Positions 16,207 to 64,000 of a stretch of 64,000 bases of DNA are shown here, one piece after another (position 1 is the stretch's first letter; each line of letters begins with the position of its first letter). A model generated the notes under the pieces. That model searched no databases. It was not told where the DNA came from and saw only the letters and a list, made by a program, of their open reading frames with translations. The DNA is taken from positions 21,004,315 to 21,068,314 of the forward strand of contig OZ038454.1 in the NCBI GenBank assembly GCA_964036195.1. The letters run 5' to 3'. Position numbers and translations under genes: made by a program. Source of the DNA: Sphaerolaimus hirsutus. Lineage: Eukaryota; Nematoda; Chromadorea; Monhysterida; Sphaerolaimidae.

Positions 16207-16495
16207 GCACCAGCAGAAAGAATGCAGAGATTACTGAAGCATACTGTACAAACTTCTGACTGAAGGATACAGAGAAATATCACCAATAGACGGACGCAAA
16301 AAAGTATGAGTAGGTAGTCGAAATGAAAATGTGGAATATGTGGGTAACATTTATCTCGTCCGAATGTATGCCAAGTTGGGGGGATGTCTAAAACCTAGAA
16401 ATTCTATGTGCTTCAATTCATTGTCATACATTCGGACGGGTGCACGCAGAGTTCGGACGAACGATTTGGAATACCGGGCGCTTATCGAACTCATT

Positions 16496-16760
16496 GGCGC
16501 ACAGCACACTGAAATTTTGAGTTCAGCGTTCGAACGTTTTTGCACGCTGAACTACAAACGCTGAAATCAAAATCTAAAGAACGCAACGTTTTTGAAGCGT
16601 AAAAATTTCGGAATTTGCAATATTTCGCGCAATTCACATGCGAGTAGAATTTTTTACGCTTCAAAAATGTTGTCTTCTTTAGTTATTGATTTCAGCGTTT
16701 GTAGTTCAGCGTGCAAAAACGTTCGAACGCTGAACTCAAAATTTCAGTGTGCGGTGCGCC
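16496..16760. mobile_element. Foldback MITE with GGCGCACAGCAC ends, left arm only
   Basis: It is almost fully self-complementary. It starts GGCGCACAGCACACTGAAAT, contains GTTCGAACG and TTTTTGAAGCGTAAAA on both sides of a short loop, and ends GTGTGCGGTGCGCC. The right arm lacks it near 63740. A relative lies at 27140-27403. Confidence 0.85.
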
Positions 16761-17210
16761 AATGAAATTTCGTAGAAAAATTGTCGATGCCTGAGATAAA
16801 TTACTTTTTGATCTCGTATCGACAAAAACATTGGAATTTAGCGAATATAGGTAATATCCATGTGTAAAAGTTATCGTTCGAACTCCAGATGCACGTTGAG
16901 TCGATAAAAGTGGTGCTCAGTTGGCACCGCAGCTCATTCTGCACGTGCAAAATAATAGCCGTTTAAAATGAGATTTCAGCATCAACGATCGAAAATAAGT
17001 GATAAAGGTAAGTGGCATTGGCCCCACGCAAACTAATTTAGTTGTCAAACGAAATTTTCAAAATCTTGTTTGACTTATAAATACTGTTCGGAAATAGTAG
17101 CATGGGAGCCAATGACAAAATAACAAAAAACCTCGATTAACGGGAAATTCTCATTACGATATCGGAATATAAAAAGATCACATGAGCGGACAAACAATTC
17201 GAATACAGTA

Positions 17211-17480
17211 AATTCTTGAATAAACTCCCCGGGTAAAATAGCCTTCATCGTATTGAATTTTCGTCAGTCAATATTGAGAGAACCAATTTTTTCATCAGCA
17301 TTTTGTAAAATCAACACATTTATTGAAAGTCTCAGCGACAGGTCTGAATACCCCTTGATTTGAAACACGGTGGCGTATTTTTTACTTTGCGTAAGCCACA
17401 TTATGACCTGGGAATTTCTCCAGCCGCCGCTTACACAGAGGAAATTATTTGAGGGGTGCTTATTCAAGAAAATACAGTAC
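17211..17480. mobile_element. Eroded CCGTATT-type MITE present in both arms
   Basis: Degenerate ends (CAGTAAATTCTTGAATAAAC and TTATTCAAGAAAATACAGTA) face each other. The right arm has the partner at about 62812-62990 (TACCGTATTTTCTTGAATAA). This insertion therefore predates the duplication, unlike most others here. Confidence 0.55.
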
Positions 17481-18091
17481 ACTAGATTTTCTCACAATCT
17501 CACGATTTTCTCTGAAACGACATTACTTTTTCAATTATTAAATATATGAGGTCCTACCAATAAGTCCCAGTTTCAACTGAACTAATTCTGTACAGCCTGG
17601 AGTAAGATTATTCGATTGACTGGGATAAAGTGACGAAAACTACAAAAACCAATACAATTTCAACACTTAATCGACTAATAATAGCGGAGGAACAACATTT
17701 TCTGGCAAAGTGCCAACATTATTGCGCCAGACGGAAATTAGTGGTTCAGTGGAGGGCTGCTGGCATTTAAAGATAATTTTTTTAAACCACGTGCGCCACG
17801 TTCTAAGTGCCGATGCCACAAGTTGCCAAGTGACAGTAAAAGTAGTGGTGAAAAAGTGGTAAGTGGTAACGACAAGTGTACGCTATACTTTAGTAAAATG
17901 TACCGTTCACCTAAAAGTTCACTTCTCACAACACCCCCTTTATCGTCACTTTGCAACATCAAAAAAACGACACGTAAAGCGCCCGACACGCGAGTCAGCA
18001 CTTAAAACCGCGCTGAAATGTGCCCACTTTGAGCGCTCACTCGCTTGTCGGGCGCCCTACGAGCCCTGCGCCCTACTCGAGCCGCAGTTGG

Positions 18092-21000
18092 TCATTGCAT
18101 CTGCACGGCGACGGGCTGCGCGACGGCACAGTTGAAAGAGAGGGCGCGGCTGACCGCCCCCGCCGCCCTGACGCGCCCCCTGCCGCCCGACTGTGCCGCT
18201 GTGCCGCCCGACTGCGCGGCGGCAGCTTGGAAGAGGGAGCGGCGGCTGGCGGACGCGCTGGGGTCGTTGCAGCTGCGCAGCCGGCTGCTCGACCGCGACC
18301 GGTACTTGGCCAGCTCACTTGGATGGTCGTGCATCTTCACGTAGCTCCGCGGTGTGCACAGCTCCTGCGGGGGGGGGGGGCGGTTGTGAAAATGTTTTTA
18401 AAGTGACTTTTTTGGTGGCCGGTTTCTTTTTTTAAACGCCAAGGACATTTTCCGCCACGTCGAATGACAAGAAAAAGTGCTAAACGATAAGTGAAACGTA
18501 TATATTTGGAAATGAAAATACTGGTCACTTGACGATTTATCACTTCACTTGTCACTCTACCGTAGGCCACTGCATCAAATCTTGCATTCGCATTTGGCAA
18601 AACAGATACCAAAACAATGCATAGAGCTTTATGTATACTCAGCTCTACGCTGACAATTTTTCGTATTCTGACGGTCCATGGTTTCACAAATTCCACACCA
18701 TGTGATCCTATACAATACCATGTGTAGTAAACGAACGAACGCATTGGCACCCCACACGCTAGTTGACATCGACACCAAATGTCAACTGGTTCCCATCCCA
18801 ATCCAAAGCTTGCTGACGAAGAGACGAACGACGTTCAAATGCAAAAGTGTTGAATCATGTTACAAATGAAGCTGTAGTGTTGCGAAAAAATTGCGGTACA
18901 AAGACGGCATGAAGTATATGTGTATACAATAATGTGTAACGTTACTCTTGAGCAAGCTTTGAATTGGGATAGGAGCCAGTTGACATTTGGTGTCGATGTC
19001 AACTAGCGTGTGGAGCGCCATTGCGACGAGAGATAATATCTCGTTTTATACGGTACACGACACTGAGGAGAAACAGTGAACCGCAAGGCCACCGAAATGC
19101 ACACTTAAATATATTTACACCCACAAAATACAGCAACAAAAGTGGTTCAACAGATGAGAAAGTAGCCACACGAGATCAGCAATTGTAGATGCACATTACA
19201 ATATAATAAATGTCACATATTTAGGATATTCCCAAAGCATTCATCAAACTAACAGGGAACGAATTATAGAACTCTCTGTATCCCCCGCTCAAAATGTAAA
19301 TCTCCGGGTAGGCCAATTTGGGGTAGCGCCGCTCGTTCGCAGCTCTGTCCAACTTTCGCAGCGCCCGATTCCTGCAAAAATTGAGCTTTGTAAATAATGG
19401 CGTGAGTGAACTTGCAAAAAAAACAACTGCGCAAAATTCAAAATTTAACTGAGAAAAAAACAAACTAAATGGGGGTTTCCAAGGTTGAGGGGGTCACCCC
19501 AGACTTTCGAGACTTGTGTTTATAACATTCCTCTATAACTGCATTTAATCCGGCTGCAACCCCCCCCCCCAAGAAAAAAAAAGGAAACCTGCCCGAACGG
19601 ACATGTTTGGTCCGCGCATCTGGGAGAACTCGCAGTAGAACACGAACACGTGGGCGGAGTCGAGCTGCGTGAGCATGTGCGGCTGCGCGAAGTGGCGCTG
19701 CAGCGTCGCCTGCTCGTGCACGTTGGCGGCGCCGCGCACGTGCCCCCCCGCGAACTCGTACGGGTAGCGGCAGTCGACCAGCTGCAGTCGCGCCGCCGGC
19801 CGGCCCAGCGCAGCCGCAGCCCCCTCGGGGTGCGTCAACACCGCCGCCAGCTGAGTGCGGTTTCGGTTGTTGGTAGAACGGCGCTAAGCACACCAGTTGA
19901 CACCTGTCAACTGGTTTCTGTGTTTATTCGGCTTTTAGTTGAAATTAGATGAATCTTATCATTTTACGAATACAGCAACATCAAAAAAACATTGACCAAC
20001 CGTCTGTGCGGAAATATTCTTCAAATCCTGGCAATGCGAGTCGGCCGCCTGCCGCGCCATGATCGGCAGCGAGTGTTTCTGCGGCGGGGACAACATTCAT
20101 TGAACACCAAATAGAATCTCAAAACCCGGTGCAGAAAAAAGCAAACAAAGTGAACACTCACCCTGGAGAAGTCTCCGACCACGTCGAGGTCGTCGAACAC
20201 GTGCGCGTGGTGGTCGACCAGCCGCGGCATGGAGATCTCCGTCTCGGAGAAGGCCCTGCTCAACTTGACTGCGGCGCCCTGCCGCGGCACGTCCAGCTGC
20301 TGCCGCCCGTCCAGCTCGCTTCTCTGCCGCTTCGCCGGGCTGTTTCTGCTGGCGGCGGCGGGCGCGGGCCAGTTCTCGTCGGGCGGCGGCTGCGGCGACG
20401 GCTGCTTGAGGCGCTTGCGGCTGCCGCCCAGCGTCGCGCGGCACAGCGACTTGTCCAGCGGCGCGAGCGGCCGCGCGAACAGACTCATGTCCGACGGCGC
20501 CTTGTGCAGCGGCGCCAGTCCAGCCACGCCCAGCTTCCGCTGCGACACGGTACACACGTTACAACAGACAATAAAAAAGTATTTGGAATCATCTCCTATT
20601 TAAAACGGTTTTTCAAAACATTAAAAAACACTTAAAAACGGTTTTTCAAAACATTTTAAAAAACAGTTAAAAAAGCTCTGGTCGAGCCAGTCATCCCTAG
20701 TTTCGGGTCAGTGATATTCTCACGAAATTGACCCACCTTTGCGATGAAGCCAGTGGCGGCGGCGTCGGGCATCTCGTTGGTGAGGTTCCTGAGCGGGGCG
20801 CGCGGCCTGGCCTTGGGCGTGGCGCTGCCCTCGTCGGACGCAGTGCGGCAGATGGGGCGGCCGGCGGCGCCGCGCTGCGACCTGCGGACCACTGCGCGCG
20901 GCCGCGGCGCCGGCCCAGCCAAATTCTCGTCGCTCTGCAGCTGCACCGACTGCAGGTGCAGCTGCGCGAAGTTCGGCGGCGCGGCCACGTCCTGTTGGAG

Positions 21001-24000
21001 GATATGTCAGCTATAAGCGACGGGATGGGAAACGCATCGTGGGTGCATGGCACGCAACTGGTAACAACTTCAATGTGAAGCCTCAAGTGAAGCCACAGCA
21101 ACTTCAGTGTGGACTATGTTTGTGACTTGGTTCTAGACGAGAAAGCTACCGTACACAGTAAGCTACCGTAGATATCACTATTTACCGGTGGTAATTACGG
21201 GTACGGTGCCCAAAATCACTGGAAACAAGCAGGAAGAGCTCACGGGCATGGGCTGATCGCTGGCAAAGGCAGTGACGAGGTCGCCATTGTCGCTGAAGGC
21301 CCGTCTGGGCCGGGGCGCCGTGCCGCGTCCCAATTGCGCGGTGTGGTGGGCCTCGGCGCGGCTGGGCGGCCGGTCGTTGGAGCCCTCGAAGCCGCTGTCC
21401 TTGCTGCGGCTGCAGTCGGCCGCCGGCGGCGAACTCAACGCGCACTCGAACACTGACGAGTCGCTAGACACCGAACACCCGCCTGAGAGCAGAGGGATCT
21501 TCAGTTTTTGGTTATGCGCTCACGTATACATTGAGTACTTCTACCGTACCCCACCCCATGTGGATAAAACAAATATTTTTCTCTCTTCAGATTACATTGT
21601 TGAAACTTAATTTATCTAAATACAGTAACGTATGTATCGCTCTCAAGTTTACATATAATTGAGACCTCTACTTCTAAAAGTCAACAAGTCCACAAAATGT
21701 GATTTTGAGTAAATCGTATTTTAAGTTTCCGATCCAATTCCAGGTGCATGTCCAATTTGGCTCTCTCATGCTTTCCATTAAGTTCCATATGTTGACAATA
21801 AAGTGTCAAATTTTCAGCCCCTGCTCTCAACCTTTATGTGAAAAATGGGATGTCCATAAATTTCCATTCGGTAAGAGCAAAACTGTTTTTGGGTGGGAAA
21901 TGGACTTGTCGACTTCTTGCACTAACAAACATTTTTGTTCCTGGCCTGGATGATTCTCCTTTATGGGCAATTTATGGACTAGTCGACTTTTAGAAGTAGC
22001 TGTCACGGACATATCACATTTCTTGCTATTTTTTCCCATAAAAAATGATGAAGAGGATGGACTTGTCGACTTCTTGCCTTAAACTAAGTGGACTTGTCGA
22101 CTTCTTGCCCAAAATTTTTGCATGTTTCCCCAAAAATGTCAAATTTGGCACATTGCCATATGGGCATGTGAGGTCAAAAAATTTATGGAAAATAATAAGA
22201 AATGTGCGGAAGTAGCCCCAGATGACGTTTTCGGGCCTAACTCGAAATTTTCATATTTTGGACTTGTCGACTTTTAGAAGTAGACGCCTCAATTTTTTCA
22301 TTGCGTGTTTTCTTTTTTTGTTTTGCGTTGCATCATTTTTTCTTCTGAAATGCATAGACTTTATTATTTATTTGATTTATTTGAATATATGGAATCATAC
22401 TTGAAAATAAGCATGACAAATAACCATTAGTTCATTTGTGCGTACGTTGTTTACCCTTGTTCTTTGAGTACCTATACATACAATATTTAGAAGCACAACT
22501 GTAAATAAAGTTTCATGCATCAAATGGCATGACCGCCATTGGGATTATCTGCCAAAAGCGGCCGCAGTAAACAAAGAGAAACTTGTGAATATTGACTCAG
22601 GGCATTATCACCCCCCCCCCCACGAAATGAAACTTTCCAAGCTCGCCCATACCTACACCTAAAATCTACATCGCACATGCATAAAATACGACTCAAATCA
22701 TGCTTTGTTGTGCACTGGAGAAGGCTGATTATGACGGCACAAAGTCACCCACGTTGCACAATAATCCAATGTAAGGACACTAGAAACAATGGGGCATCTC
22801 CACTCGATTGGACATGTGATCCATGCACGAATGCATGCGCACGCCAAATTGGAGTTAGGTATATATTCCCGTTGTTCCGCAATCGACGATGTTCAAGTGC
22901 ATCCATGAGTTCATTATCATGCGTTTTCAAGTGCACAGATCACTGCCTCAGAAGAAAGCACTTGGTATACCAATGACTAGAGACCACATTTCATTGGTCA
23001 AAAACGATTTCTCGGGCTGCCCGACTTATTGTCTGGCATTACCGTATTTCTCCGTGTAAACCGTCCCCCCGTGCACAACGCCCAGGGCGTTATACAGCTG
23101 TATAGCGCCCCCGGGGCGCTATGCTTGGTTCCAAAAACATTAGCTAAGTGGAAATATTTTTAGGACAAATCAAGCTGAAAGGTCCACTTGGTTTGAACTA
23201 TTTGAACGTTGTGCCTTGCGGCACGCATTGTTATTCTGCAGAATGCACGTTTTTCCATTGAATTCGGTGCACACGAGGAGGGAACAGAAAGTATGTAAAT
23301 ATTTAAGCAAACATTTTCCTTGCATAACGCCCCCCCTCGCAATGATTTAACGCCCGGGCGTTATACAAGTTTTTAAAAAAGGTTACCGGGAAGTGCCTCG
23401 GTTTTGTATAACGCCCGGGCGGTTTACACGGAGAAATACGGTATAGCTCCCCAGTTGATTAGGTCAAGAATGTCAAACAAAGCGTATGAATTTCGAATAA
23501 GATCGAGGTCGATTATTTTAGAACTTTATAGAACCTTTGTTTTTGTAAAACAGGTCACATTTAGACACCATTTTGCCCAATTCCAAGTGAGGTGAATTCG
23601 ATTTTCCCAAAAACATTCCCAATCGGGCTTTTTAAATTTGGTGCTCGGAACCCCCACGCCAACCCAATGACCAAATAACAGGGTTGAAACGCAATACAAT
23701 ACAAAATTGCATTACATTTATCCGGAAACAAAGATTGAGCACAGGTGCAAATAATTTTTGATGGCAAGGAATTAATGAGACCCACGGGCCGTAAATAATC
23801 CCAGAGTTCCCAGAATTAAGCCTATTAAACAAATAAGAGAGGATTTTCCAAGGAAAAATCGCCCGCGGCAGTCGATGTGAAAATGGCAACAAAACGTCTC
23901 CAGTAATTCGTTTATAATATTCATATCCTGTTTCCAGGGGGAATCGTTGAAGCCCCCAAATCACGTTTGCATCCAATTTTACATGTGCACTCGACTTAAC

Positions 24001-27000
24001 GGCCTCATAAATGCATATAAAATACAAACAATAAAACTACGTTGCAGTCAAACAATAAACCAATTTCCATCAGCCACGGGAGAAGGTCACTGCAGTACAC
24101 GGGAAAAATTGTTTAGGGTGCGCCCGGAAAAAATTGGGGCAATTGCATAAGACTCCCAAAAAACGGGAACAGTAGCCTTTGGCGGCGAAACATCAAAGCA
24201 CAGCAATAATTGTTGCGCAGAGCAGAGTGGCCGACATTAAAGTATATAGATACAGACTCGGGAAACGTTTCTAAACCGTACCCCCGAATACACCCCCACC
24301 CCACCCCCCAGAAAAAACGACCACATGTTGGCTCCCTTTGGGTTAATTGATGCCCCTCTGATTGCATTCAATTTTCAAGATTACCGTGTGACGATGAAAA
24401 AAGAGTGCCGTTGCACCTGTAATTTCCGTCCAGTTTTGCACGCTAATTGTCGCAATGGACAAATGGTGTGCATTTTTGAATCTGTTTTTATACGGCGGCG
24501 CCCCGCGGCGACCACAAATGTGCTCGGAGACACCAAAAGTGTGCAAGCAAACACGGAAGCGACACAAACACTACTTGATTATCACGTCATTTCCCCAGTT
24601 TCCGTTCTCACGCGGCGGGAGACCGAAATATGAATTGTTTGTGGCCACTTCACGCCGTCAACTCAAACTCAAAAAACTAATTTTGTGAGTGACAAACAGC
24701 CATCGAAAAAAAACCTTGTGACGGTAAATAAAAGCGAGGGCCCAGGATTTTCGAGGATCGAATGGTCTTGAATTTTCATGTGGAAACATATATTTATGTG
24801 GTAATAATAAATCCATATCCCGATCGATGTATTAAATACACCCTAATTAAGTAACCAACAACCCCCATTCTGACAACAACAACAAAAAAGCCCCCAACGG
24901 ACCGTCGAAGTGAGTGCCTGGGTCTGGGCTGTAGATGGGCGGGAAGCCGGGCGCCTGGCTCACCCGGGAGCCCCTGGCGCCGGTGCGCAGCTGCAGCCCC
25001 ACGCCGCAGCCAGTACCGGCCACCAGCCGCTGCTCCGAGACGCGCCGCTGCAACGACCAGCTGCTGCACGACAACGAGCTGCACGACGAGCTCGTCGACG
25101 CAGACTCCGCGCTGCCGCTGCACGACGCAAAGCTGCGGGGGGGGGGGGGGGTGCAGATGGAGTATGTTGACTGTGAAAAGTTTTTACTTTAAGGAGGTGT
25201 TTACACTCAATGACAATATGTGTGCATGATTGTGAAATGTGTGGGGTTTGTTGTATTTCTTAGGTTGAGGTTTGATCAGGGGTCTCCAGGATTTTGGCCC
25301 TCGCGGGGGCTGGATAGATAGCAAATGGCTCCTCCGGAGGGATAGATAGCTGGAAAATTTTTCTGGGGGGGGGCTGGGGGGGGGCTGGGGGGGGGCTTGG
25401 GGGGGGGCTGGCGGGGGCACAATATATAGGCTTTTTCAAGGTTAAGAAGGCAGAAAGGGGGAAAAATTCGCTAATAATCAGTTAAAAGTAGCCAAAAGTA
25501 GGTATAAAATGGCTAAAAATAGGTATATAACCATGTATATAGCCGGAAAGCACGATTTTGAAGGTGAAAAACTATAAAGAGGTGCGAACATTAGTGATTT
25601 TGAGCGAAAATTGGGGCAAAATTTCTCAAAAACCACTCCAGATAGATAGATAGCTGAGCGATTTGGGGGGGGGGGTCTTTTGGGGTAGTAGCCAAAAATT
25701 TTGCCTCGGGATAGATAGATAGCTGAGCGACCTCCGGGATAGATAGATAGCTGGCCGATTTGGGGGGGGGGGCAGCCCCCCCCCAGCCCCCCCCCCCCCT
25801 AGGAGACCCCTGGGTTTGATCAAATCATGATTGATCGAGCCTATCAGATGTTTCATTCCCAGCCCGGAAATGTTTGAAAAATCAAATGTTTTGTCATCAC
25901 ATGGTCATTGAGTGTAAACACCGCCTAACAGTTAGTATGTATAATGTATTCTATCAGTCAAAAAAAAATTTCCGTCACGAATTTTTGTAATCAGCTGCGT
26001 TCGTAATTGTAATTGTAAAAAAAAATTGTAATCACGTGCGTGCGGTGAACAGCGGCACATGCCGCAAGTCTCCACGAAACAACATTTTTTTGTCTTCCCA
26101 ATTTTATGTTCGCTTTTTTTACGTCTCGACGTTCTCACGTGTCTGTAACATTCAATTTTGTTCAAGGTTGTGATATTCTGCACACTGTGCATTTAACATA
26201 TCCATACACAACATAACATACGTTACACATACATACAGAGTATTTGACCATTTTTGAGCAGTTGTTTGCCATCATGAAAACCTTTAATAATATCGTGTAA
26301 CGTACATTTCATTCTTACTTATTTGCATCACAATTCTGAGTAGATGGGAAATGGAAATGAAGTATGGAAAATGAACAATCTGCAGAAAGAATATCACTCA
26401 TCTCATGAAACAATTAAATTGATATTGACATGCATACATCAAGGGCGTGTGACAGTTGAATGAATGCATGTGACATGGCAATCAAAACTAATCCCATTCA
26501 TAAAATGTCCATTTCTGATTGTATCGGAAAATTGGTCCATGGGAAATTCGGGCGTGCAAATAAAACAATAAAAATATATTATTTTGGAAGCATGATGCAG
26601 CTTGCAGTCAGCTCAAACGGAATTAATAAAGCATATTTCATCCCTCCCTAAAAACAGCGCTCCAAATTTCATTTGGTCCATTGCCAAAATGTGACAAACA
26701 AACCATAATCGATACGCACACACTCGTAAAATTCCCATAAGACGTGAATAAATAATTGTTTTTGCCTGCAAACAGCACTCAACTGTTGCAATGCAGCCAA
26801 GCCACACATTCATAAATAAGCAGGGCTAATTATTTGACCAGAAAAAGCCATGGCACAACCTGGTGCAGCAATAAAGCCATTGCTTGGTAACCCCACCCCA
26901 AACCGCCCAGCTATCTATCAATCCCTGGGCCAAATTTTTTTGGCTACTTCCCCTGAACACCCCCCCCCACAAATTGCCTAGCTATTTTGCTATCTAGCTA

Positions 27001-32431: not shown

Positions 32432-34139
32432 GCCGCGCGCATCGACGCAGCGGTGATAAGCCGTTCACTTGGCTGCTTGAGCGGCTCGCACGGTTAAAAA
32501 TGTGATTTTATAGAAGAAATTGATTGTAACGAGTAAATGCTTCGAATGGGGAAATATTGCACTGGTCCCTGCGAACGCGAAAAAGGCATTTTAATGAGAA
32601 TCTCTTTCAATCTGAAAATGACTATCAAAGACTCCAATCCCACGGGGGTCAAATACGGCTTCAGAACCCGATTGCGATTAAAATGGGCATCGAAATTTAA
32701 ATGGGAATAAAAATATGCGCATCGCAATGAGACAATGTTGGAGCGGCGTAATGAATGGGTCATTGAAAACCGGGCGCCCATGGAATCCACCCATAGATCC
32801 AGAGATCCCCGATGGGAACGTGCATCTACTACAGACCCACGCAGAGCGGAGCGCCGCAATGGAATGCATGAATGAAGGATGCACGCAACGCAGCGGGGGG
32901 ATCATTCATGGAATGGGATGCCTAGTGATGGTTGGGAAAGGATGTGTGCACGTATTTGTGTGGGGTTGCATGTTGGTGTCACATTTTCGATTGTTTTTTC
33001 AAAATGATGTTTTTAAAAAGCATGTAGTATCTATTCTTTGATCTTGAATCTCTGTATATGCTCACTCTAAGAACGGTTTTTCAAAAACGAGTTTCTTTAT
33101 TTAAAACAAACATTTCCAGCCCTAATCAACGAAAATCTCCACATTGGCTGCAATGCTCGATGTGAGCTTAGACATCAAATATATATAACGCCAGTTTCAT
33201 AAAAATGAGACAAACGCACCGACAAACTGCAAACTCATGAACATAATTTTACTCAAAATGTCGGGTTTGAAATGATGTTTCGAAATCGACACGCCTGCGC
33301 GGCGGCGTGAAATACGACCAATCCCATATGGCACGCGGAAAACTTTCGCTGGGCTATAATTTTGAAAGGTGCAAGGTTATTTACGACTTCTCACTTTTCC
33401 ACTGCCACTTTTTAAGATTTTTTATCAGCATGCATGAAGGCTCTTTTGATACCATGTTATCGAATAAAATGTCGCCTATTTGAGTACAAATTTTTTATAC
33501 TAAACTAGGATGCAAGTCAAGTGCATGTGAACGAAAAGAGGAATGTGCCGCGGCTGAAATTTGAAATTTAAAAATGCGGAAGGGTGAATCTTCGATAGAA
33601 TCTCCAATCGCTTGGAGCTGTCGCAGCGTAAATACCTTTCCAATCTGAACATTCATGCAAAATCGCAAATGCACATGCAAAACGGGACCCAAGGTGTAAT
33701 GGAGAAAGGGAAAAACCATGAGCGAAAACTTTCCATTCCATGATCTCTGTCCCATCTCGAAATATAAAGATTTTATCGCCGCGCGTGACAAGTTATTACC
33801 CCAAGGTCATCGATTTACACACCCAAGTGGCAAACTTTAAATGCCCAAATCGGGCAATTTCGGGTAACCCGATTGCTGTCATGTATTGATCATGAAGTGA
33901 AAGCTGCCCGATTTAATGCAGTTAAAATTATATTTACAACTTAAATTCAAAATCAATATTGATTCTGAAAGTTGCCGAAAATTTGATTCGCTGCGTGCAA
34001 ATCAAATAACTTAATAAATCGGGACTTATGATTTTTCTGTACAAAAATCGGGTCAGCGAAACCCGAAAGACGCCGCCCAGCATCAAATTCTCACTTCTCC
34101 AGATTCGAAATGTGCGCACGCAAACCGCAAAGAGGCAAA

Positions 34140-34314
34140 CAAAAGTCGAGACTGCAAAAGTTGCACCTGACGTTGGCCAATTCGAAAAGCCGGTGCGAAT
34201 GAAAGCAAAAGAGCAGCGGCAGGTGGGACGCGGCCGCTTTTCAAAGGCCGCCGCTCGCACGCGGATCAACCAAAGTCCACTTTGCCGCCTTGACGGCACA
34301 ATCTACCACTTTGG
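34140..34314. promoter_or_regulatory. Conserved upstream block of left cdc25
   Basis: About 175 bp match 46860-47045 (reversed) with only about four differences, while flanking sequence is much more diverged. It lies about 1.8 kb upstream of the start codon. A frame antisense to cdc25 stays open in both arms (KVAPDVGQFEKPV and onward), and so does the sense frame. Promoter, 5' exon and unannotated coding exon all remain possible. Confidence 0.4.
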
Positions 34315-34557: not shown

Positions 34558-34658
34558 CGCCAGGGGCACTCGAAAAGTAATTAAGAAATAAAATATTCGG
34601 CGTGCAATTAGTTAGTTCGCTAGTAAGACGGCCGCAGTTCAATCTCGCGAATGCAACG

Positions 34659-34671
34659 TTTTTCCCGCCAA
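34659..34671 (-). promoter_or_regulatory. E2F-like site TTTTTCCCGCCAA upstream of left cdc25
   Basis: The sequence fits the E2F consensus TTTSSCGC and is in the region upstream of cdc25. E2F is a known activator of cell-cycle genes. The equivalent right-arm sequence near 46752 reads TTTTTCGCCAAGG and no longer fits. Confidence 0.35.
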
Positions 34672-51400: not shown

Positions 51401-54400
51401 TGCGTTTGTATTTGCATTTATTTATGCGTGCACGAGTGTGGCGTGCCGACAGAGTGCTGCGTAGAATTTTAATGTCCGATGGAGAATATAGTTACAGTTG
51501 CATCTGTGCTGCAATGTGATACTCTACGGGAAGTATCTTGAATGAAGGGTGTCGTCCATCTGATATTTACAAGTCTTCAATGGTCGAGAGTTGGCCATCT
51601 GCCAGACATCTTTATATGCGTTTATCCATGCGTGGTGCCATTGGGATGGCTGTAACGACCACCGAAGTGCGCGCTGACCCCCGCGGCACATTCGTCTGCA
51701 CCTGGCCGCGCCGCTTCACCTCATCTGAACTGGGCTACAATTTGAATTCATCCGGCTCTGGGGTCACTAATTAGCATCACCTGGCCGCATTCGGCTGTTA
51801 TACAATGCACTTCAACTCGGCATTGTCCCACGGCTAAGCCGCAGCGGCGGCGGCATGAGCGCAGCGGGGCGGCGTGACCCGGGCCGACCTGCCGCCGCTT
51901 CACAAGCCGCCGCGCCGCACAGATGCGTCCCAGCACTTTGCTCAGGTATGCATGCACGCGCGTTTGCACAGTGTCTGTTTGCGTGGGAATTATTAGCCCT
52001 TGGCCCGGTTTACACGGGGCCGCAAGCGGGGGGGGGGGGTTGTGTGTGTTTGCATGTGAACTCTGTGCCGGGCCACCGTTCTGCAGTGCGGCTATACAAA
52101 AGCCCGGTCTAATGGACTGCACTGACCCAATTCGAACTTGGATCGGCTCTCCCAATGCATTCTTTTGTTGGTTCTCTGCATTCGACAGCAATGGCTTTAT
52201 TGCTGCACCAGGTTGTGCCACGGCACCGGGTTGTGGCTTTTTCTGGTCAAATAATTAGCCCTGCTTATTTATGAATGTGTGGCTTGGCTGCATTGCAACA
52301 GTTGAGTGCTGTTTGCAGGCAAAAACAATTATTTATTCACGTCTTATGGGAATTTTACGAGTGTGTGCGTATCGATTATGGTTTGTTTGTCACGTTTTGG
52401 CAACAGGCCAAACGAAATTTGGAGGGTTGTTGTTAGGGAGGGATGAAATATGCTTAATGAATTCTGTTTAAGCTGAAAACAACCTGAATGTTTCATTTGC
52501 ACGCCAGAATTTCCCATTGACGAATTTCCCATTGACGAATTTCCCATTGACATTTTATGAATGGGATTAGTTTTGATTGTCTGTCACATGCATTCATTCA
52601 ACTGTCACACGCACTTGATGTCTGCATGTCAATGTCAATCTAATTGTTGCGTGAGATGAGAGATATTATTTTTGCGAATGTTCATAGTCCATCCATACTT
52701 CATTTCCATTTTCCATACACTCAAAATTGTGATGGTACTGTATTTTCTGGTTTTCTATTGATTAAATTTTCTGATTTCCCCCTAAATTTTTCAATGTTTT
52801 CTGACGGATGAAGGTACAATCTTAAAAAATGAGGAGAAAATTTCATGTATTTATAACAGTAGGCGAACAGTAGATGGATATGTTACATGTTCAGTGTGCA
52901 GAATATTCGCAACCTTGAATAAAATTGAATGTTACAACACGTGGGAACCTTGAGTCATAAAAACGCGAATATAAAATCGGGAACACAAAAAGATGTTGTT
53001 TAACGGAGACTTGCGGCATGTGCCATGTGTACCACGGTTGCAGCTGATGTCGAAAAATCGTGATGGAAAAATTCATTTTTGACCAGGGGTCTCCTAGGGG
53101 GGGGGCTGGGGGGGGGGGCTGCCCCCCCCAAATCGGCCAGCTATCTATCTATCCCGGAGGCCGCTCAGCTATCTATCTATCCCGAGGCAAAATTTTTGGC
53201 TACTACCCCTAAAGACCCCCCCCAAATCGCTCAGCTATCTATCTATCTGGAGTGGTTTTTGAGAAATTTTGCCCCAATTTTTGCTCAAAATCACCAATTT
53301 TCGCACCTTTTTATAGTTTTTCACCTTCAAAATCATGCTTTCCGGCTATATACAGGGTTATATACCTATTTTTAGCCATTTTATACCTACTTTTGGCCAC
53401 TTTTAACTGATTCTTAGCGATTTTTCCCCCTTTCTGCCTTCTTAACCTTGAAAAAGCCTATATATTGTGCCCCCGCCAGCCCCCCCCCCAAGCCCCCCCC
53501 CAGAAAATTTTTTCAGCTATCTATCCCTCCGGAGGAGCGATTTGCTATCTATCCAGCCCCCGCGAGGGCCAAAATCCTGGAGACCCCTGTTTTTGACTGA
53601 AAGAATACATAATATATGATAAAATAAAAGTTTGTCACAGTCAACATACTCCAACTGCATTCACCCCTCCCCGCAGCTTTGCGTCGTGCAGCGGCAGCGC
53701 GGAGTCTGCGTCGACGAGCTCGTCGTGCAGCTCGTTGTCGTGCAGCAGCTGGTCGTTGCAGCGGCGCGTCTCGGAGCAGCGGCTGGGGGCCGGCTCCGGC
53801 TGCGGCGTGGGGCTGCAGCTGCGCACCGGCGCCAGGGGCTCCCGGGTGAGCCAGGCGCCCGGCTTCCCGCCCATCTACAGCCCAGACCCAGGCACTCACT
53901 TCGACGGTCCGTTGGGGGGGGGGGGGGTATTTTGGGAGTGTTGTTGTTTGGATTTGGGTGATTGGTCACGTACTCACGTGTTTATTTTGTTGCGTATAAA
54001 TTGGAAAGTGGTTTTTTTTTGTTAGTGCAAAAACGAGTGTATTTTGTGTATTTCGATCAAAATTTTGTTGTCGATGAAGTGGCACGAAAGCGAGCACATC
54101 ACAATGCGTGAAAATGTTCTGTTGTGCATTTATCATTTTTCACACTTTTTCAAATGAAAATTCCAGACCATTCACATTCCCTCGTCTACACGGCATCAAA
54201 ACTTTCAATGTCTGTTTGTCACTCAAAAATAAGTGTATATTGAGTTTGAGTTGACGGCGTCAAGTGGATACAAACAATTCATATTTCGGTCTCCCGCCGC
54301 GTGAGAACGGAAACTGGGGAAATGACGTGATAATCAGGTAGTGTTTGTGTCGCTTCCGTGTTTGCTTGCACACTTTTTGTGTCTCCGAGCACATTTGTGG

Positions 54401-57400
54401 TCGCCGCGGGGCGCCGCCGTATAAAAACATATTCAAAAATGCACACCATTTGTCCATTGCGACAATTAGCGTGCAAAACGGGACGGAAATTACAGGTGCA
54501 ACGGCACTCTTTTTTCATCGTCACACGGTAATCTTGAAAATTGAATGCAATCAGAGGGGCATCAATTAACCCAAAGGGAGCCAACATGTGGTCGTTTCTT
54601 CTGGGGGGTGGGGGTGGGGGTGTATTCGGGGGTACAGTGAAGAAACGTTTCCCGAGTCTGTATCTATATACTTTAATGTCGGCCACTCTGCTCTGCGCAA
54701 CAATTATTGCTGTGCTTTGATGTTTCGCCGCCAAAGGCTACTGTTCCCGTTTTTTGGGAGTCTTATGCAATTGCCCCAATTTTTTCCGGGCGCACCCTAA
54801 ACAATTTTTTCCCGTGTACTGCAGTGACCTTCTCCCGTGGCTGATGGAAAAATGGGTTTATTGTTTGATTGCAATGTAGATTTATTGTTTGTATTTTATA
54901 TGCATTTATGAGGCCGTAAAGTCGAGTGCACATGTAAAATTGGATGCGAACGTGATTTGGGGGCTTCAACGATTCCCCCTGGAAACAGGATATGAATATT
55001 ATAAAAGCATTTATTGGGGACGTTTTGTTGCCATTTTCACGTCGACTGCCGCCGGCGGTTTTTCCTGAAAATCCTCTTTTATTAATTTAATAGGCTTAAT
55101 TTTGGGCAACTTTGGGATTATTTACGGCCCGTGGGTCTCATTAATGCATTGCCATCAAAAATTCCTTGCACCTGGCTGTGTTCGATCTTTGTTTCTGGAT
55201 TCAAGGTAATGCAATTTTGTCTTGTATTGCGTTTCAGCCCTGTTATTTGCTCATTGGCGTGGGCGTGGGGTGTTCCGGGCACCAAATTTTATAAGCCCGA
55301 TTAAGTGTATTTTTGGGAAAATTGACTTCACCTCATCTGAAATTGGGCAAAAACGGTGTTTAAATGTGAATCCTTTTACAAAAACAACGTTTCTAAAATA
55401 ATTCTCGCCGACCTCGAACCAATTTGAAATTGATACGCTTGGCATTTTTGACATAATAAACTGGGCAGCATATCTTTTCAGTCAATAAGTTGGGCAGCCC
55501 GAGAAATCGGGTCTGACTAATTTAGTGTGGTCCCTGGCCATTGGCCATTGGGAAATATAAAGTGCCCTCTTGTGAAGCAGTGATCCGTGCACTTGAAAAC
55601 GCATGATAATGAACTCATGGATGCACTTGAACATCGTCGATTGCGGAACAACGAGAATTTATGACTCAAATTTGGCGTGCGCATGCATTCGTGCATGGAT
55701 CACATGTCCAATTGAGTGGAGATGTTTCTAGTGTCCTTACATTGGATTATTGTGCAATCGTGGGTGACTTTGTGCCGTCATAATCAGCCTTCTCCAGTGC
55801 ACAACAAAGCATGATTTGAGTCGTCTTTTATGCATGTGCGATGTAGATTTGGGTGTAGGTATGCGAGCTTGGAAAGTTTCATTTCGTGGGGGGGGGGTGA
55901 TAATGCTCTGTATCAATATTCACAAGTTTCTCTTTGTTTACTGCGGCCGCTTTTGGCAGATAATCCCAATGGCGGTCATGCCATTTGATGCATGAAACTT
56001 TATTTACAGTTGTGCTTATAAATATTGTATGTATAGGTACTCAAAGAACAAGGGTAAACATCATAGGCACAAATGAACTAATGGTTATTTGTCATGCTTA
56101 TTTTCAAGTATGATTCCATATATTTAAATAAAGCAAATAAATGTCTGTGCATTTCAGAAGAGTAAGCAACGCAACGCAAAACAAAAAATGAAAAAAATGA
56201 AAGAGTGAAAATGAATTGTTTGTAAACTTGAGAGTGATACAAACGTTACTGTATTTAGATAAATTTAGATTGAACAATGTAATCTGATGAGAGAAAAATA
56301 TGTCTTCTATTCAGATGGGGTGGGGTATGGTAGAAGTACTCAATGTATATTTACGTGTACGCATAACCAAAAACTCAACATCCATCTGCTCTCAGCTGGC
56401 TGTTCTGTGTCGAGCGACTCGTCAGTGTTCGAGTGCGCGTTGAGTTCGCCGCCGGCGGCCGACTGCAGCCGCAGCAAGGACAGCGGCTTCGAGGGCTCCA
56501 ACGACCGGCCGCCCAGCCGCGCCGAGGCCCACCACACCGCGCAATTGGGACGCGGCACGGCGCCCCGGCCCAGACGGGCCTTCAGCGACAATGGCGACCT
56601 CGTCACTGCCTTTGCCAGCGATCAGCCCATGCCGGTGAGGTTTTCGTGGCTGGTTACAGTAATTCTGCAGTTAACATTGGCTAAATTGTGGCGCCCTACC
56701 GAGAATTACCGAAAAATTAAGAAAATGCAACTTACCTGTACCGGTAAATCGTAAACGATAAATCGTAGCAGCTTACCGTACTAGGTACCATCCCTCTCGT
56801 GTCGCTTATAACTGACATTCCCCCCTCCAACAGGACGTTGCGGCGCCGCCGAACTTCGCGCAGCTGCACCTGCAGTCGGTGCGGCAGCAGAGCGACGAGA
56901 ACTTGGCTGGGCCGGCGCCGCGGCCGCGCGCAGTCGTCCGCAGGTCGCAGCGCGGCGCCGCCGGCCGCCCCATGTGCCGCACCGCGTCCGACGAGGGCAG
57001 CGCCACGCCCAAGGCCAGGCCGCGCGCCCCGCTCAGGAACCTCACCAACGAGATGCCCGACGCCGCCGCCACTGGCTTCATCGCCAAGGTGAGTCACTTC
57101 TGCGTGGAGTATGAGAGGCTCGAAACTAGGGTTGACCGAAGCTTTTTTTCTTTAAACCTTGAGGGTTTTTTTTGGAAAAATGTCTTGAGAAACCGTTTTA
57201 AAAAGGAGATGATCACAAAAAATTATGTCTGTTTGAGTAAACGGGTGTGGCGTGTCGCAGCGGAAGCTGGGCGTGGCTGGACTGGCGCCGCTGCACAAGG
57301 CGCCGTCGGACATGAGTCTGTTCGCGCGGCCGCTCGCGCCGCTGGACAAGTCGCTGTGCCGCGCGACGCTGGGCGGCAACCGCAAGCGCCTCAAGCAGCC

Positions 57401-59919
57401 GTCGCCGCAGCCGCCGCCCGACGAGAACTGGCCCGCGCCCGCCGCCGCCAGCAGAAACAGCCCGGCGAAGCGGCAGAGAAGCGAGCTGGACGGGCGGCAG
57501 CAGCTGGACGTGCCGCGGCAGGGCGCCGCAGTCAAGTTGAGCAGGGCCTTCTCGGAGACGGAGATCTCCATGCCGCGGCTGGTCGACCACCACGCGCACG
57601 TCTTCGACGACCTCGACGTGGTCGGAGACTTCTCCAGGGTGAGTGTTCATTTTGTTTGCTTTTTTCTGCACCGGGTTTTGAAATTCTATTTGGTGTTCAA
57701 TGAATGTTGTCCCCGCCGCAGAAACACTCGCTGCCGATCATGGCGCGGCAGGCGGCCGACTCGCATTGCCAGGATTTGAAGAATATTTCCGCGCAGACGG
57801 TTGGTCAATGTTTTTTTGATGTTGCTGTATTCGTAAAATGATAAGATTCAACTAATTTCAACTTAAAGCCGAATAAACACAGAAACCAGTTGACAGGTGT
57901 CAACTGGTGTGCTTAGCGCCGTTCTACCAACAACCCAAACCGCACTCAGCTGGCGGCGGTGTTGACTCACCCCGAGGGGGCTGCGGCTGCGCTGGGCCGG
58001 CCGGCGGCGCGACTGCAGCTGGTCGACTGCCGCTACCCGTACGAGTTCGCGGGGGGGCACGTGCGCGGCGCCGCCAACGTGCACGAGCAGGCGACGCTGC
58101 AGCGCCACTTCGCGCAGCCGCACATGCTCACGCAGCTCGACTCCGCCCACGTGTTCGTGTTCTACTGCGAGTTCTCCCAGATGCGCGGACCAAACATGTC
58201 CGTTGCAGCGGTTTTCTTGTTTTGCGGGTTTGGGGGGGGGGGTAAATCGGAGTAGGGGTGTAAAAAGCTGTTCTTGAATAAGCTTATTCCGCGAGCGGAT
58301 ATTTTTTTCTTAAGACAAAAATGGAGGAAAAATAGCAAGTATAGTGAGTATTGTAGCAAAAAAATTTCCCTCTACATGTATCTCGAAAGTCTGGGGTGAC
58401 CCCCTAACCCTTGGAGACCCCTATTTCCATACTTTTTCCACACAGTTCAATTTCTTTGGAACACACTTCTACGCCGTTTTCTTTTACAAAGCTCAATTTT
58501 TGCAGGAATCGGGCGCTGCGAAAGTTGGACAGAGCTGCGAACGAGCGGCGCTACCCCAAATTGGCCTACCCGGAGATTTACATTTTGAGCGGGGGATACA
58601 GAGAGTTCTATAATTCGTTCCCCGTTAGTTTGATGGACTTGGTTAATATTTGATGAATGCTTTGAGAATATCCCAAATACCGTATTACCTCGAATTAACC
58701 CCCCTCGAATTACCCCCCCCTCAAAATGGGCTGGGGAAATAATAACCCCCCTCGAAATACCCCCTTCAGAATGATGTAAATCATGTATCCAATGTACATG
58801 ATGTATTTATTACTGCAAATGTGCATTGCAGCAACACTTGTACGCTCATTTGTGTACAGATGTACGTCTATAGCCCCAATATAACCTATGTTCTCACGTT
58901 TATTACCATTTTTGTGTATGAAAAAGCGTATTCTTTACTATGAATTTCATGAAAATTTCTGACGAAATAATCCCCCCTCGAATAAGCCCCCCCCGAATTA
59001 ACCCCCCTGGCTGGCGAAATTGCTGGCGAAATAATAAACCCCCATGGGGGTATTTCGAGGTCATACGGTACGTGACAGTTATTATATTGTAATGTGCATC
59101 TACAATTGCTGATCTCCTGTGGCTACTTTCTCATCTGCTGAACCACTTTTGTTGCTGTATTTTGTGGGTGTAAAAATATTTAAGTGTGCATTTCGGTGGC
59201 CTTGCGGTAGTCTTGACGTTGTTGTGTACCGTATAAAACGAGATATTACTCTCTTCGCAACGCGTTGGTTCGTTCACTACACATAGTATTGTATAGGATC
59301 ACATGGTTTGGAATTGTGAAACCATGAACTTGAACTTTTTCGTCGGAATACGACACATTTTTCAGCGTAGAGCTTAGTATAGATAAAGCTTTGTTTTGGA
59401 TCTGTTTTTCCAAATGCGAATGCAAGATTTGATGCAGTGGCCTACGGTAGAGTGACAAGTGAAGTGATACATCGTCAAGTGACCAGTATTTTCATTTCCA
59501 AATACGTTTACGTTTCACTTATCGTTTACCACTTTTTTTGTCACTTGTCGACGTGACGGAAAATGTCCTTGGCGTTTAAAAAAAGAAACCAACCACCAAA
59601 AAAGTCACTTTAAAAACATTTTCACAACCGCCCCCCCCCCTCGCAGGAGCTGTGCTCTCCGCGGGGCTACGTGAAGATGCACGACCATCCAAGTGAGCTG
59701 GCCAAGTACCGGTCGCGGTCGAGCAGCCGGCTGCGCAGCTGCAACGACCCCAGCGCGTCCGCCAGCCGCCGCTCCCTCTTCCAAGCTGCCGCCGCGCAGT
59801 CGGGCGGCACAGCGGCGCAGTCGGGCGGCAGGGGGCGCGTCAGGGCGGCGGGGGCGGTCAGCCGCGCCCTCTCTTTCAACTGTGCCGTCGCGCAGCCCGT
59901 CGCCGTGCAGATGCAATGA
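48489..59919 (+). CDS. cdc25: Cdc25 dual-specificity phosphatase, right copy (11 exons, 762 aa)
   Basis: The exons are 48489-48604, 48679-48872, 49083-49242, 53677-53906, 56396-56634, 56834-57088, 57261-57638, 57722-57799, 57950-58197, 58506-58623 and 59647-59919. They sum to 2289 nt in one open frame, and all introns are GT-AG. Residues 26-31 are SPVSQL, 261-268 KDSGFEGS (a possible beta-TrCP-type phosphodegron) and 294-297 RAFS (a basophilic kinase site). Basic stretches RKRLK and AKRQR lie in exon 7. The catalytic domain starts around GDFSR (about 524), with DCRYPYE at 576-582 and active-site Cys623 and Arg629 in [17 protein letters not shown] and GGYREFY follow in exon 10. The residue before the catalytic Cys is Tyr, where most Cdc25 proteins have His, and the residue before Arg is Met, where Glu is usual. 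The exons are strongly GC-rich against AT-rich introns. Other identities are very unlikely given the CX5R context and domain order. Confidence 0.96.
49243..53083. other. Right intron 3 (5' part), conserved blocks but no supported exon
   Basis: GC-rich blocks matching left intron 3 (for example 49860-50340, 50490-50800 and 51040-51160) alternate with diverged AT-rich sequence. None of the open frames shows a recognisable family or consistent splice borders. Confidence 0.4.
53084..53589. mobile_element. hAT-like element, ends CAGGGGTCTCC, TSD TTTTTGAC (right arm)
   Basis: TTTTTGAC flanks it at 53076-53083 and 53590-53597. It ends 87 bp before exon 4. The left arm shows the empty target near 25963-25970 (GTCAAAAA in that orientation), so this insertion is independent of the left-arm copy. 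Confidence 0.9.
54283..54600. promoter_or_regulatory. Highly conserved intron 4 block (right arm)
   Basis: It is the counterpart of 24305-24650, with about seven differences over 340 bp. Confidence 0.4.
58678..59070. mobile_element. CCGTATT MITE in intron 10 of right cdc25, TA target
   Basis: It starts TACCGTATTACCTCGAATTA and ends GAGGTCATACGGTA. The left arm has the empty site near 19217 (GTCACATATTTAGGATATTC), with a single TA at the junction. Confidence 0.85.
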
Positions 59920-60334: not shown

Positions 60335-60726
60335 TAGTTGAAATCAGTTGAACACGTGAGATTTGGTAGGACTAGTGATGGAAAAGCGCCATGGCGCTGG
60401 CGCCTGGCGCTAGCGCCACAGCAAAAAGCGCCATGGCGCTTTTGGCGCTTGGCGCTAAAACGCTCTGGCGCCATTGGCGCTTGGCGCCGGGATCTGGGAA
60501 AGCGCCATGGCGCTTTTGGCGCTTGGCGCCATTTTCTGGTGACGCTATTGGCGCCTGGCGCTGGCATTTTAAATGGCGCCAAGAAAGCGCCAACCATGAT
60601 GATAAAAATTGTTAAAATACAGTGAAAATCCACAATCCAGTTGATCGATTTTGAGAACAACTGAATAAATATTGATAAATATAGGTAAGGGTGTTAGGGG
60701 ACATTAATATTTATTAAATATTGATC

Positions 60727-61288
60727 AGGGGCCAGTTCCGCAAGTAGACAAGTTAAGAGTTAAAAGTTAAGAGTTGAGTTAAAGGTTAAAAGTTTAGTCA
60801 AAAGTTGAGTTAAATGTTAAGAGTTGAGTTAAAGGTTAAAAGTTGAGTCAAAAGTTGAGTTAAAAGACAAATGGGTCATTCGTTGCAGAAGTGCGATACG
60901 CTGATCTTCAATCATATTTTGTCCCTGCACGGTCATTCTGAAACAACGTTCCACGATTTTTTTTTAAGCGATAATTTTTTTGGATACGTTATTTTCAAAT
61001 GTTGTGCATACAACATTGGCAGCATGCCAGCGAACAGCCGTATCAATACCAATTTCACATTTTCATTTCTTTACCATCATTTTCCACTTGTCTCTTAACT
61101 CTCAACTCTTAACTCAACTCTTAACTCAACTTTTAACCTTTAACTCAACTCTTAACATTTAACTCAACTTTTAACTCGACTCTTAAATTTTAACTTTTCT
61201 CTTAAACTTTAACTTTACTCTTAACTTGCCATTTGTCATTTTACTCAACTCTTAACTTTTAACTTGTCCACTTGCGGAACCGGCACCA
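60727..61288. mobile_element. Nested element made of GTTAAAAGTTGAGTTAA units
   Basis: Inverted ends (GGCCAGTTCCGCAAGTAGAC and ACTTGCGGAACCGGCACC) flank long runs of AGAGTTAAAAGTTGAGTTAA-like units. These are repeated as the complement (TTAACTCAACTCTTAAC) on the other side. The target duplication is unclear. Confidence 0.7.
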
Positions 61289-61313
61289 GGTAACATTTGG
61301 TGACAAATGTATA

Positions 61314-61557
61314 TACCGTATTTCCTTGAATTATCCCCCCCTTGAATTAACCCCATCGAAATACCTACCGTCTTCAATAATGTACATCATGACTGCAATG
61401 TATTTACATGATGTATCATTTGCTGCTAATTTCCCTAGCAAATACATATAAAGTAGTTTGTATATGTATATATGCATATACCGTATTTCCTCGAAATATC
61501 CTCCCTTGAATTAATTAATAATAAACCCACATGGGGGTAATTCGAGGTAATACAGTA
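61314..61557. mobile_element. CCGTATT MITE, eroded
   Basis: It starts TACCGTATTTCCTTGAATTA and ends TTCGAGGTAATACAGTA. A second CCGTATTTCCTCGAAATATC end lies inside at about 61479. Confidence 0.65.
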
Positions 61558-64000
61558 AATACATTTTCACAATAAATTGCTCTGTGTAGCACATTAAAAA
61601 TACCATAAATTACCTAAATAAGTCCTCTCCCTAGAATAACTCCAACTGTTAGCCAAATGAGAATAAAAAAAACATCCCTTAAATAACTTCGCTTTTTTGC
61701 TGTGTGGGGAACAAAGAAGTCCCCATTGAAAGCTCCCCAGTCACATTGCTTGGCTGAAGGCACCAGATTTAACTGGGCAGACAGATTTCTGCCATCCGCG
61801 CCCGGCACCTGACACACCCGTTATGCACGGCAGGCGAAATATTGTATCACGAGATTCAATTGCGCCCTGCATGCCAGGCGCCTGACACGCCCGACGCGCC
61901 TGCCAGGCACACCCTCACAAGTGTCTGACTTGCCTGAAAATTGCAAAATGAGATTTAATTGTGAGGGCATGCCTGGCAAAATTTAACAGAACATGAAAAA
62001 TGTGCCCTGCATCCTCAGAGGTGCAGGGCAGGTAACTTCTCATGTTTTCAGTTTGACTTTTTCCATAGTGTATCTAAATATATTTTTTGTATCCAAATCT
62101 TATTTTTCATGTATTCAAATCTTATGTTTTTGGTATCCAAATCTTATGTTTTGTATCCAAAACTTATGTTTGTGTATCCAAATATTATGTTTGTGCCTGT
62201 CCTACCAGGCACCTGACAGCTGCCGCCCGGCACGCAATTAAATCTCGCTCTGCCTGGTGGTCGGGCGGTGGCTGTCAGGCGCCTGGCGCGGGCATGCCTG
62301 CCCAATCAAATCTCGAATTGCATGACACGCCCGTCATGTCCTCCCTCTCAGGGATAATCTGCCCAATTAAAGCTGGGACCAGGGCATTTGATTAATGTAA
62401 ACATCGTAGTGGTTGATTGAACTTCAATGGCAGAAGTTAAATTGACCACTACGACATCAGCGGTGCGTCGCAGTTATGAATCGATTATTCTACAAACGAA
62501 TTGCAGAAAAAATTTTTGGCGCTGGCGCTATTGGCGCTTGGCGCCATTACCCTCTGGCGCCATTGGCGCTTGGCGCTAAGGTTCAGAAAAGCGCCATGGC
62601 GCTTTTGGCGCTTGGCGCTATTTTGCTCTGGCGCCATTGGGGCTTGGCGCTGGGGGTTCGAAAAGCGCCATGGCGCTTTTGGCGCTTGGCGCCAAAAGTT
62701 TGGCGCTTTTTCCATCACTAGGTAGGACCTCGTATTTCTTAAAAACCGATAAAAGTACCTATACAGGGACGATTTTCCCATTTGTCGTTACAGCTGTGAG
62801 AGAATCAAGTGTACCGTATTTTCTTGAATAAACAATACCTCGAGTAATTCCCTCTGTAGAGTTTTTAACGATTTAATCACGTTTACCTTACTCAATGTGT
62901 TGGTTTGACAAAAATTGTGATGAAAAAAATTAGTCTCAAAATTGAGAAAAAAAACCTGCTCGGGTGGTTTATTCAAGAATATCATGTATTTATGTAAATA
63001 TTTAGTCCCCTCATGTGATCTTTTTGGTATTTCGATATCGTAATGATTATTAGTTTTTCTTATGTTGTCGTTGATTTCAATGCAACGATTTTTCCTGACG
63101 CGATAGTTTAAGTCAACTCGGGATACAATTTCACTTCTTGTCAAGTGACAAGGCAAGTGCCAAGAAATCACATTTCACAGAAATTGCGCGATTAATATTT
63201 ACGTGACAGTTGTCACTTTTCACGACATTTGACTTGTCACATGCCAGTTTTTGAACCAGCGCCAATACTGGTTAGAAATGTCACTTTTTTCATCAGTGAC
63301 GGAATCATGTACGCACACTAGTTGACAAACAAAATTTTCAAAACTGAAAAAGATGTTTTTCACATATTTGAGGAACGTCGAGTCCGTCCACTGTGGAGAT
63401 ATAAAATGATCCATTGTGGTAAACTCAAACGTGTTTAAAACAGTTAGTCAGTTTTGAGAATGTCTGTTGTCAACTACTTTTCGCGTGTTCGTGGGGCCAA
63501 TGCTACTTACCAATAATTACATTGATGCTGAAATCTCATTTACTCGGCTATTTTTTTGCATATGCAGAATGAGCTGCGGTGCCAACTGAGCACCAATTTT
63601 ATCGACTCACGTGCATTTTGAGTTCGGACGATGAATTTCTAACATGTAAATATATCATATTCGCCAATTTCCAATGTTTTTGTCGATACAAAATCAAAAT
63701 GTAATTTCGACAAATGTCGAATTTTTCTATGAAATTTCTGTGCCCGACACCCGACTTTCGTCCGAATTCTGCGTGCACCCGTTCGAATGTATCACACGGA
63801 GGGAATTCAAATTTAGAAGAATGTGCTGCGGACATGGGATACATTCGGACGAGATAAATGTTACCCACATATTCCACATTTTCATTTCGACTACCTACTC
63901 ATACTCTTTGCGTCCGTCTATTGGTGATATTTCTCTGTATCCTTCAGTCAGAAGTTTGTACAGTATGCTTCAGTAATCTCTGCATTCTTTCTGCTGGTGC

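Follow-up and report, generated by a model that had tools for sequence, protein, structure and literature searches.

A bounded inverted duplication carrying two cdc25 genes, with seven further cdc25 copies on the same contig

Do two copies of a cdc25 gene, lying in opposite orientation within one stretch of DNA, reflect a true chromosomal duplication, and what has kept the copies alike? The question is raised by a 64,000-nucleotide window (the whole stretch of DNA that was analysed; genome G000, contig C6, positions 21004315-21068314), part of a 30.05-Mb contig in an assembly of 348.5 Mb and 762 contigs, in which the original prediction had seen a giant inverted duplication with two intact, divergent cdc25 genes. 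Judging from sequence comparison, we think it probable that a segment of ~21 kb was duplicated in inverted orientation, that purifying selection has acted on both copies, that conversion has homogenised their exons, and that the pair forms one of two cdc25 groups on this chromosome.

Extent and ends of the inverted duplication

Comparison of the window with itself, proposed with the original prediction as a dot plot, revealed a long inverted repeat, the arms of which are linked by 25 collinear inverted BLAST pieces with 1,222 mismatches in 13,926 ungapped columns (8.8%). With 50 kb of flanking sequence added to the left and 70 kb to the right, yielding a joined stretch of 184 kb that contains no Ns, the locus is a palindrome in the sense that two homologous arms lie inverted on one chromosome around a bounded spacer (window coordinates):

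16000..37134, minus strand: arm 1, ~21.1 kb, from the BLAST chain and flank comparison
37135..43604, no strand: spacer between the arms, 6.47 kb, several stretches of which resemble dispersed repeats of other fetched loci
43605..64176, plus strand: arm 2, ~20.6 kb, from the BLAST chain and flank comparison; its last part lies in the right flank (locus L009), past the window edge at 64000

Arm homology stops at 16000 and 64176, with unrelated sequence beyond both outer ends, and because both ends fall within the N-free 184 kb, the structure is a bounded inverted duplication with arms of ~21 kb and not a contig folding back on its end. The chain of 25 pieces and the unrelated flanks thus bear out the predicted duplication, and the measured arms agree with the predicted minima of 20.9 and 20.4 kb; the predicted spacer exists, although its length had been put at 6.6 kb. 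Of the pieces of at least 700 bp in the 184 kb, nine come from the arm pair and the other is a dispersed repeat in direct orientation; a 1001-bp probe matches the two arms only. Towards the outer ends the homology is patchy: positions 60344-62794 of arm 2 (~2.45 kb) have no counterpart in arm 1, and the global arm alignment is unreliable in the part of arm 2 past ~60.3 kb, which can barely be aligned with arm 1. The same 60344-62794 interval carries arrays of AAGTTAA-like and TGGCGCC-rich units.

The arms also differ in their insertions. Seven insertion sites were examined, and in two of them the partner site is uninterrupted:

58680..59068, no strand: arm-2-specific insertion with terminal inverted repeats and TA on both sides; the arm 1 site is empty
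about 34314-34549, arm 1: arm-1-specific insertion; the partner site in arm 2 is uninterrupted

Less clean are the arm 1 insertions at 23037-23445 and about 28217-29450, which have inverted ends and imperfect partner sites. For the elements found at 16487-16761 and 27139-27412, the partner sequence is replaced rather than empty. The prediction of arm-specific transposons with clean empty sites in the partner arm therefore holds for two of the seven sites and not for the rest, and its corollary, that the arms have been separate loci for some time, is supported by those insertions whose partner sites are uninterrupted.

Erroneous scaffolding can make artificial palindromes, according to the portion of PMC7953838 available to us, and an assembly artefact, whether a head-to-head join of two haplotypes or of a chimeric read, would produce such a pair of arms. 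We regard this as highly improbable here, as both outer flanks are unrelated and lie on the same 30-Mb contig, the 184 kb is free of Ns, the probe finds two arms only, and a non-coding divergence of 12.6% together with separate insertions is far too much for one molecule read twice. A haplotype join was accordingly set aside as the leading reading, both outer ends passing into unrelated sequence.

The cdc25 pair and its mosaic divergence

Each arm carries one cdc25 gene, the two lying head to head with start codons 16.1 kb apart and each transcribed outward from the spacer. Gene models predicted from conserved splice sites and phase give a protein of 762 amino acids for the arm 2 copy (A2) and of 761 for the arm 1 copy (A1), each from 11 exons (E1-E11) in matching phase:

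48489..48604, plus strand: A2 exon 1, starting at the first of two in-frame ATGs
48679..48872, plus strand: A2 exon 2
49083..49242, plus strand: A2 exon 3
53677..53906, plus strand: A2 exon 4
56396..56634, plus strand: A2 exon 5
56834..57088, plus strand: A2 exon 6
57261..57638, plus strand: A2 exon 7
57722..57799, plus strand: A2 exon 8
57950..58197, plus strand: A2 exon 9, active-site motif FYCEFSQMR
58506..58623, plus strand: A2 exon 10
59647..59919, plus strand: A2 exon 11, including the stop codon
32316..32431, minus strand: A1 exon 1
32052..32242, minus strand: A1 exon 2, one codon less than A2 exon 2
31659..31818, minus strand: A1 exon 3
24903..25132, minus strand: A1 exon 4
21244..21482, minus strand: A1 exon 5
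20737..20991, minus strand: A1 exon 6
20162..20539, minus strand: A1 exon 7
20001..20078, minus strand: A1 exon 8
19603..19850, minus strand: A1 exon 9, active-site motif FYCEFSQMR as in A2
19254..19371, minus strand: A1 exon 10
18092..18364, minus strand: A1 exon 11, including the stop codon

All 10 introns of each copy are of the GT-AG type and both frames run open from ATG to TGA with no internal stop, which confirms the full 11-exon genes with matching phases that had been claimed for both arms. A minus-strand reading of the exon at about 53.68-53.91 kb was ruled out, the plus-strand frame having the matching acceptor, donor and phase.

The catalytic region identifies the genes. Its best phmmer match in the PDB is CDC25A (2.7e-27), CDC25C follows at 4e-27, and CDC25 chains make up the top 12 of the 16 rows listed; in Pfam it matches Rhodanese (2.8e-14). 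The C-X5-R active-site loop (YCEFSQMR) is present in both arms and in all seven copies of an array described below, and compared with the human loop, FHCEFSSER in both CDC25A and CDC25C, FYCEFSQMR retains the Cys and the Arg. The residue before the catalytic Cys is Tyr, not His, in nine of nine copies (window 57950-58197 and 19603-19850, and the array); common to both groups, the substitution is not decay of one copy. We keep the assignment to Cdc25 despite this Tyr because the Cys, the Arg and the whole-domain match all agree with it, and both copies are predicted to encode working phosphatases.

The two proteins differ by 14 substitutions in 761 aligned codons and one codon indel, 12 of the substitutions falling in E1-E7 and the other two in E11, while E8-E10 are identical (148/148). 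Nei-Gojobori estimates are 0.048 for synonymous divergence (dS) and 0.010 for nonsynonymous divergence (dN), with dN/dS of 0.21. The genes had been described as divergent, which is true of their non-coding DNA and not of their proteins: synonymous sites differ at 27/582, compared with 1,332/10,567 non-coding columns (12.6%), a figure taken from 18 blocks that align well, with exons and a further 15 bp excluded, and that hold fewer gaps and hence more mismatches than the BLAST chain. A division of labour between the arms, by tissue or by sex, might be sought upstream of the genes, where pieces at 43605-48300 retain roughly 75-87% identity, less than the exons, and the C. elegans cdc-25 genes do differ in role, at least as outlined in PMC5144981. 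It is a doubtful possibility here: the coding sequence offers no argument for distinct enzyme roles, because the proteins barely differ and the catalytic exons E8-E10 are identical.

Divergence between the copies is strongly mosaic. Differences per alignable site are 2/48 in intron 1, 44/189 in intron 2, 361/3540 in intron 3, 154/2007 in intron 4, 28/84 in intron 5, 36/139 in intron 6, 2/83 in intron 7, 3/150 in intron 8, 32/94 in intron 9 and 44/533 in intron 10. Introns 7 and 8 together (5/233) depart from introns 2, 5 and 6 (108/412) with a Fisher P-value of 9e-18, the introns having been picked after the data were seen, and synonymous divergence is likewise higher in E1-E6 (20/310) than in E7-E11 (7/272; p 0.03). 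Counted per 50 columns, non-coding mismatches show 6.5-fold overdispersion. Stretches of perfect identity reaching 90 bp or more number 22; 10 of these are entirely non-coding, and the longest non-coding one measures 192 bp, compared with a longest run of 102 in 500 shuffles of the non-coding columns. Two features stand out:

57251..58204, plus strand: E7-E9 with introns 7 and 8, 10/937 differences from arm 1, a candidate conversion tract flanked by the sharply diverged introns 6 and 9
49442..49633, plus strand: 192-bp identical non-coding run in intron 3, a candidate conserved element or conversion tract

Four further non-coding stretches that are identical between the arms lie amid diverged sequence at 44056-44207, 49857-49996, 52234-52393 and 54641-54804; with that at 49442-49633 they measure 140-192 bp, and each may be a regulatory element or a conversion tract.

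The seven-copy array and the origin of the mosaic pattern

The contigs of the genome were searched with a 180-residue catalytic query and then with a query derived from the copies so found, all 25 first-look candidates being scored; genome-wide copy counts are lower bounds. Seven more cdc25 copies, all on the minus strand, lie at C6:9607354-9752079 (9.607-9.752 Mb; loci L025-L031, L034 and L035), and their exon 9 is 58-61% identical to that of the window pair, marking a second cdc25 type. The array-derived query recovered at least seven copies each of E9, E10 and E11 in the array, in addition to the two arms, and found no match on any other contig among the 25 candidates scored, so that contig C6 has at least nine cdc25 loci that include a catalytic exon and, in addition, one fragment. 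The fragment, of the second type, consists of E7 and E8 only (L033, C6:27512001-27520000, at about 3466-3908), and no catalytic exon was found in the 8 kb fetched there, at 27.5 Mb. E7-E11 are open in six of the array copies, exon 9 of L030 being open with one substitution; the remaining copy, L029, showed neither E7 nor E8 in the ~4.5 kb upstream of its E9. L025, taken with L034, has candidate upstream exons with motifs resembling E1, E3 and E5-E6 of the pair.

Over the 21 pairs of array copies, synonymous differences range from 0.024 to 0.076, and intron stretches differ by 1.4-39%; these stretches were measured anchor to anchor with short exon ends included, and some pairs exclude exons that differed in length or that the pattern had missed. 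Intron types are shared in conflicting patterns. L027 and L026 differ by 1.4% in the E8-E9 stretch and by 22% in E9-E10, where L029 is only 2.4% from L025; L029 and L026 are 33% apart in E9-E10, yet have no nonsynonymous differences in the exons compared. The copies therefore have the character of a concerted tandem array, with seven linked same-strand members and intron sharing that conflicts between segments, and because of these conflicts the reticulate pattern points to conversion or unequal crossing over. In both groups the exons are near-identical and several introns 20-39% different. Conserved elements common to pair and array were sought with one array copy, and only exons and dispersed repeats matched.

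We read these observations as a putative lineage-specific cdc25 amplification with interlocus gene conversion. A segment of ~21 kb with one complete cdc25, its upstream DNA and its introns would have been duplicated in inverted orientation; purifying selection would keep both copies as working Cdc25 phosphatases, interlocus conversion would keep the exons and some non-coding patches alike, and the remaining arm DNA would drift and gain separate transposon insertions. Pair and same-strand array would then be two cdc25 groups on one chromosome with a like pattern of similar exons and dissimilar introns. Conversion is favoured as the likely cause of the mosaic pattern because intron sharing in the array is reticulate, the pair has the same exon/intron contrast, and Caenorhabditis provides a precedent: conversion tracts there cluster at 50-200 nt and lie mostly in exons, since introns diverge, in the part of Katju and Bergthorsson (PMC3966223) on which we draw.

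Several observations weigh against this interpretation. The high-identity patches end near exon edges, as they would under plain selection on exons and regulatory DNA; introns 3, 4 and 10 are intermediate, at 8-10% divergence; the contrast between synonymous sites and introns was compared in the pair and the array only; and GC content at third codon positions (GC3) is 0.89 in the pair, so synonymous sites may be constrained in the absence of conversion, and selection on such GC-rich exons could yield part of the pair's pattern. As to nematode identity, a search for SL1 gave no match among the 50 of 98,806 candidates scored, and its controls were equally without match. Taken to its end, the argument from constraint would make this an older pair that never experienced conversion, in which GC-biased exons and regulatory blocks were held while the rest drifted: the low-divergence patches track the exons, with splice signal adding only about 10-20 bp past their borders, and a regulatory function could account for the 10 identical runs that are wholly non-coding. 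We nevertheless find selection as the sole cause unlikely, as introns 7 and 8 are as alike as the exons that they separate, synonymous divergence itself drops from E1-E6 to E7-E11, and constraint alone does not give the conflicting intron sharing of the array.

Elsewhere in the window, a protein kinase gene of at least three exons (10175-12713, plus strand; Pfam Pkinase, 2.2e-40), SBK1-like on our reading, lies outside the arms and is single within the 184 kb. A second, hairpin-like inverted repeat occupies 3009-5142, in which 3372-4847 and its reverse complement match at 85%, and 3009-3287 and 4864-5142 match in inverted orientation at 97%. Dispersed units such as AATAACTCCCCCCTCGA occur at 15151-16000 and in many other places, for example 37330-37459, and units of this type are repeated throughout the window and at other loci that were fetched.

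Significance and comparison with known systems

The palindrome is a known kind of structure, and the notable part is the number of cdc25 copies and their concentration on one contig. As a trigger of cell division Cdc25 is sensitive to dose, and the animal genomes in the work cited here have few copies (four in C. elegans, as given in PMC5144981), so that a genome with nine loci raises the question of why a core cell-cycle activator should be amplified. The copies may act in germline or embryonic activation of Cdk1, in dosage or redundancy rather than a new enzyme function. That the nine loci form a chromosome-specific amplicon, kept uniform by conversion for a high or sex- or germline-specific dose of Cdc25 (on a sex chromosome, for example, or for very fast early divisions), strikes us as quite unlikely; were the chromosome sex-linked, interest would shift to the amplification itself. 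With two arrangements and one exon-homogenised pattern, the nine loci would also allow conversion in inverted and direct repeats to be compared within one family.

The DNA probably comes from a nematode. A search for the MSP-domain family returned 20 matches, and the MSP-domain protein at L037 has two significant PDB matches, WR4 and an MSP-domain-like protein (2e-12), both of which we take to be C. elegans proteins; the best family match, L036, is presumably a VAP-like protein and was not used. One of seven fetched contig-end stretches (contig C3) is filled with TTAGGC, the telomere repeat of most nematodes according to the text available from PMC9071541.

The analogy with string and twine of flies, offered in the original prediction, is probably wrong, because the telomere repeat is of the nematode type and C. 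elegans, with four cdc-25 genes, is nearer. string and twine are old, diverged paralogs, whereas the arms here differ at only 14/761 aligned residues. What the Drosophila pair and the pea aphid Cdc25 do share with this locus is a lineage-specific duplication of cdc25; in the account of PMC2826372 accessible to us, the aphid gene is duplicated and, among the other insects compared, duplication is found only in drosophilids. The four C. elegans genes, cdc-25.1 to cdc-25.4, have germline, oocyte, intestinal and male-mating roles in the summary drawn from PMC5144981, and they resemble the present, probably nematode, cdc25 family in having several members, with partly different roles in C. elegans; unlike them, nine loci lie here on one contig, divided between the inverted pair and the array of seven, and within either group the proteins are near-identical. 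Judged mostly from listings, searches of one open-access library yielded no description of a cdc25 family of nine. Gene-bearing palindromes are rare yet present in nematodes, with Mesorhabditis, Diploscapter and Meloidogyne named in the available part of PMC7953838, and conversion in Caenorhabditis occurs in inverted as well as direct pairs, including the inverted hsp16 pair, as reported in the excerpt used of PMC3966223. Primate Y palindromes and the C. elegans hsp16 pair are like the present locus in having inverted, close and intact copies with conversion-like patches, insofar as these two sources describe them (PMC7953838, PMC3966223), whereas the arms here, with 8.8% mismatch, are far less alike overall.

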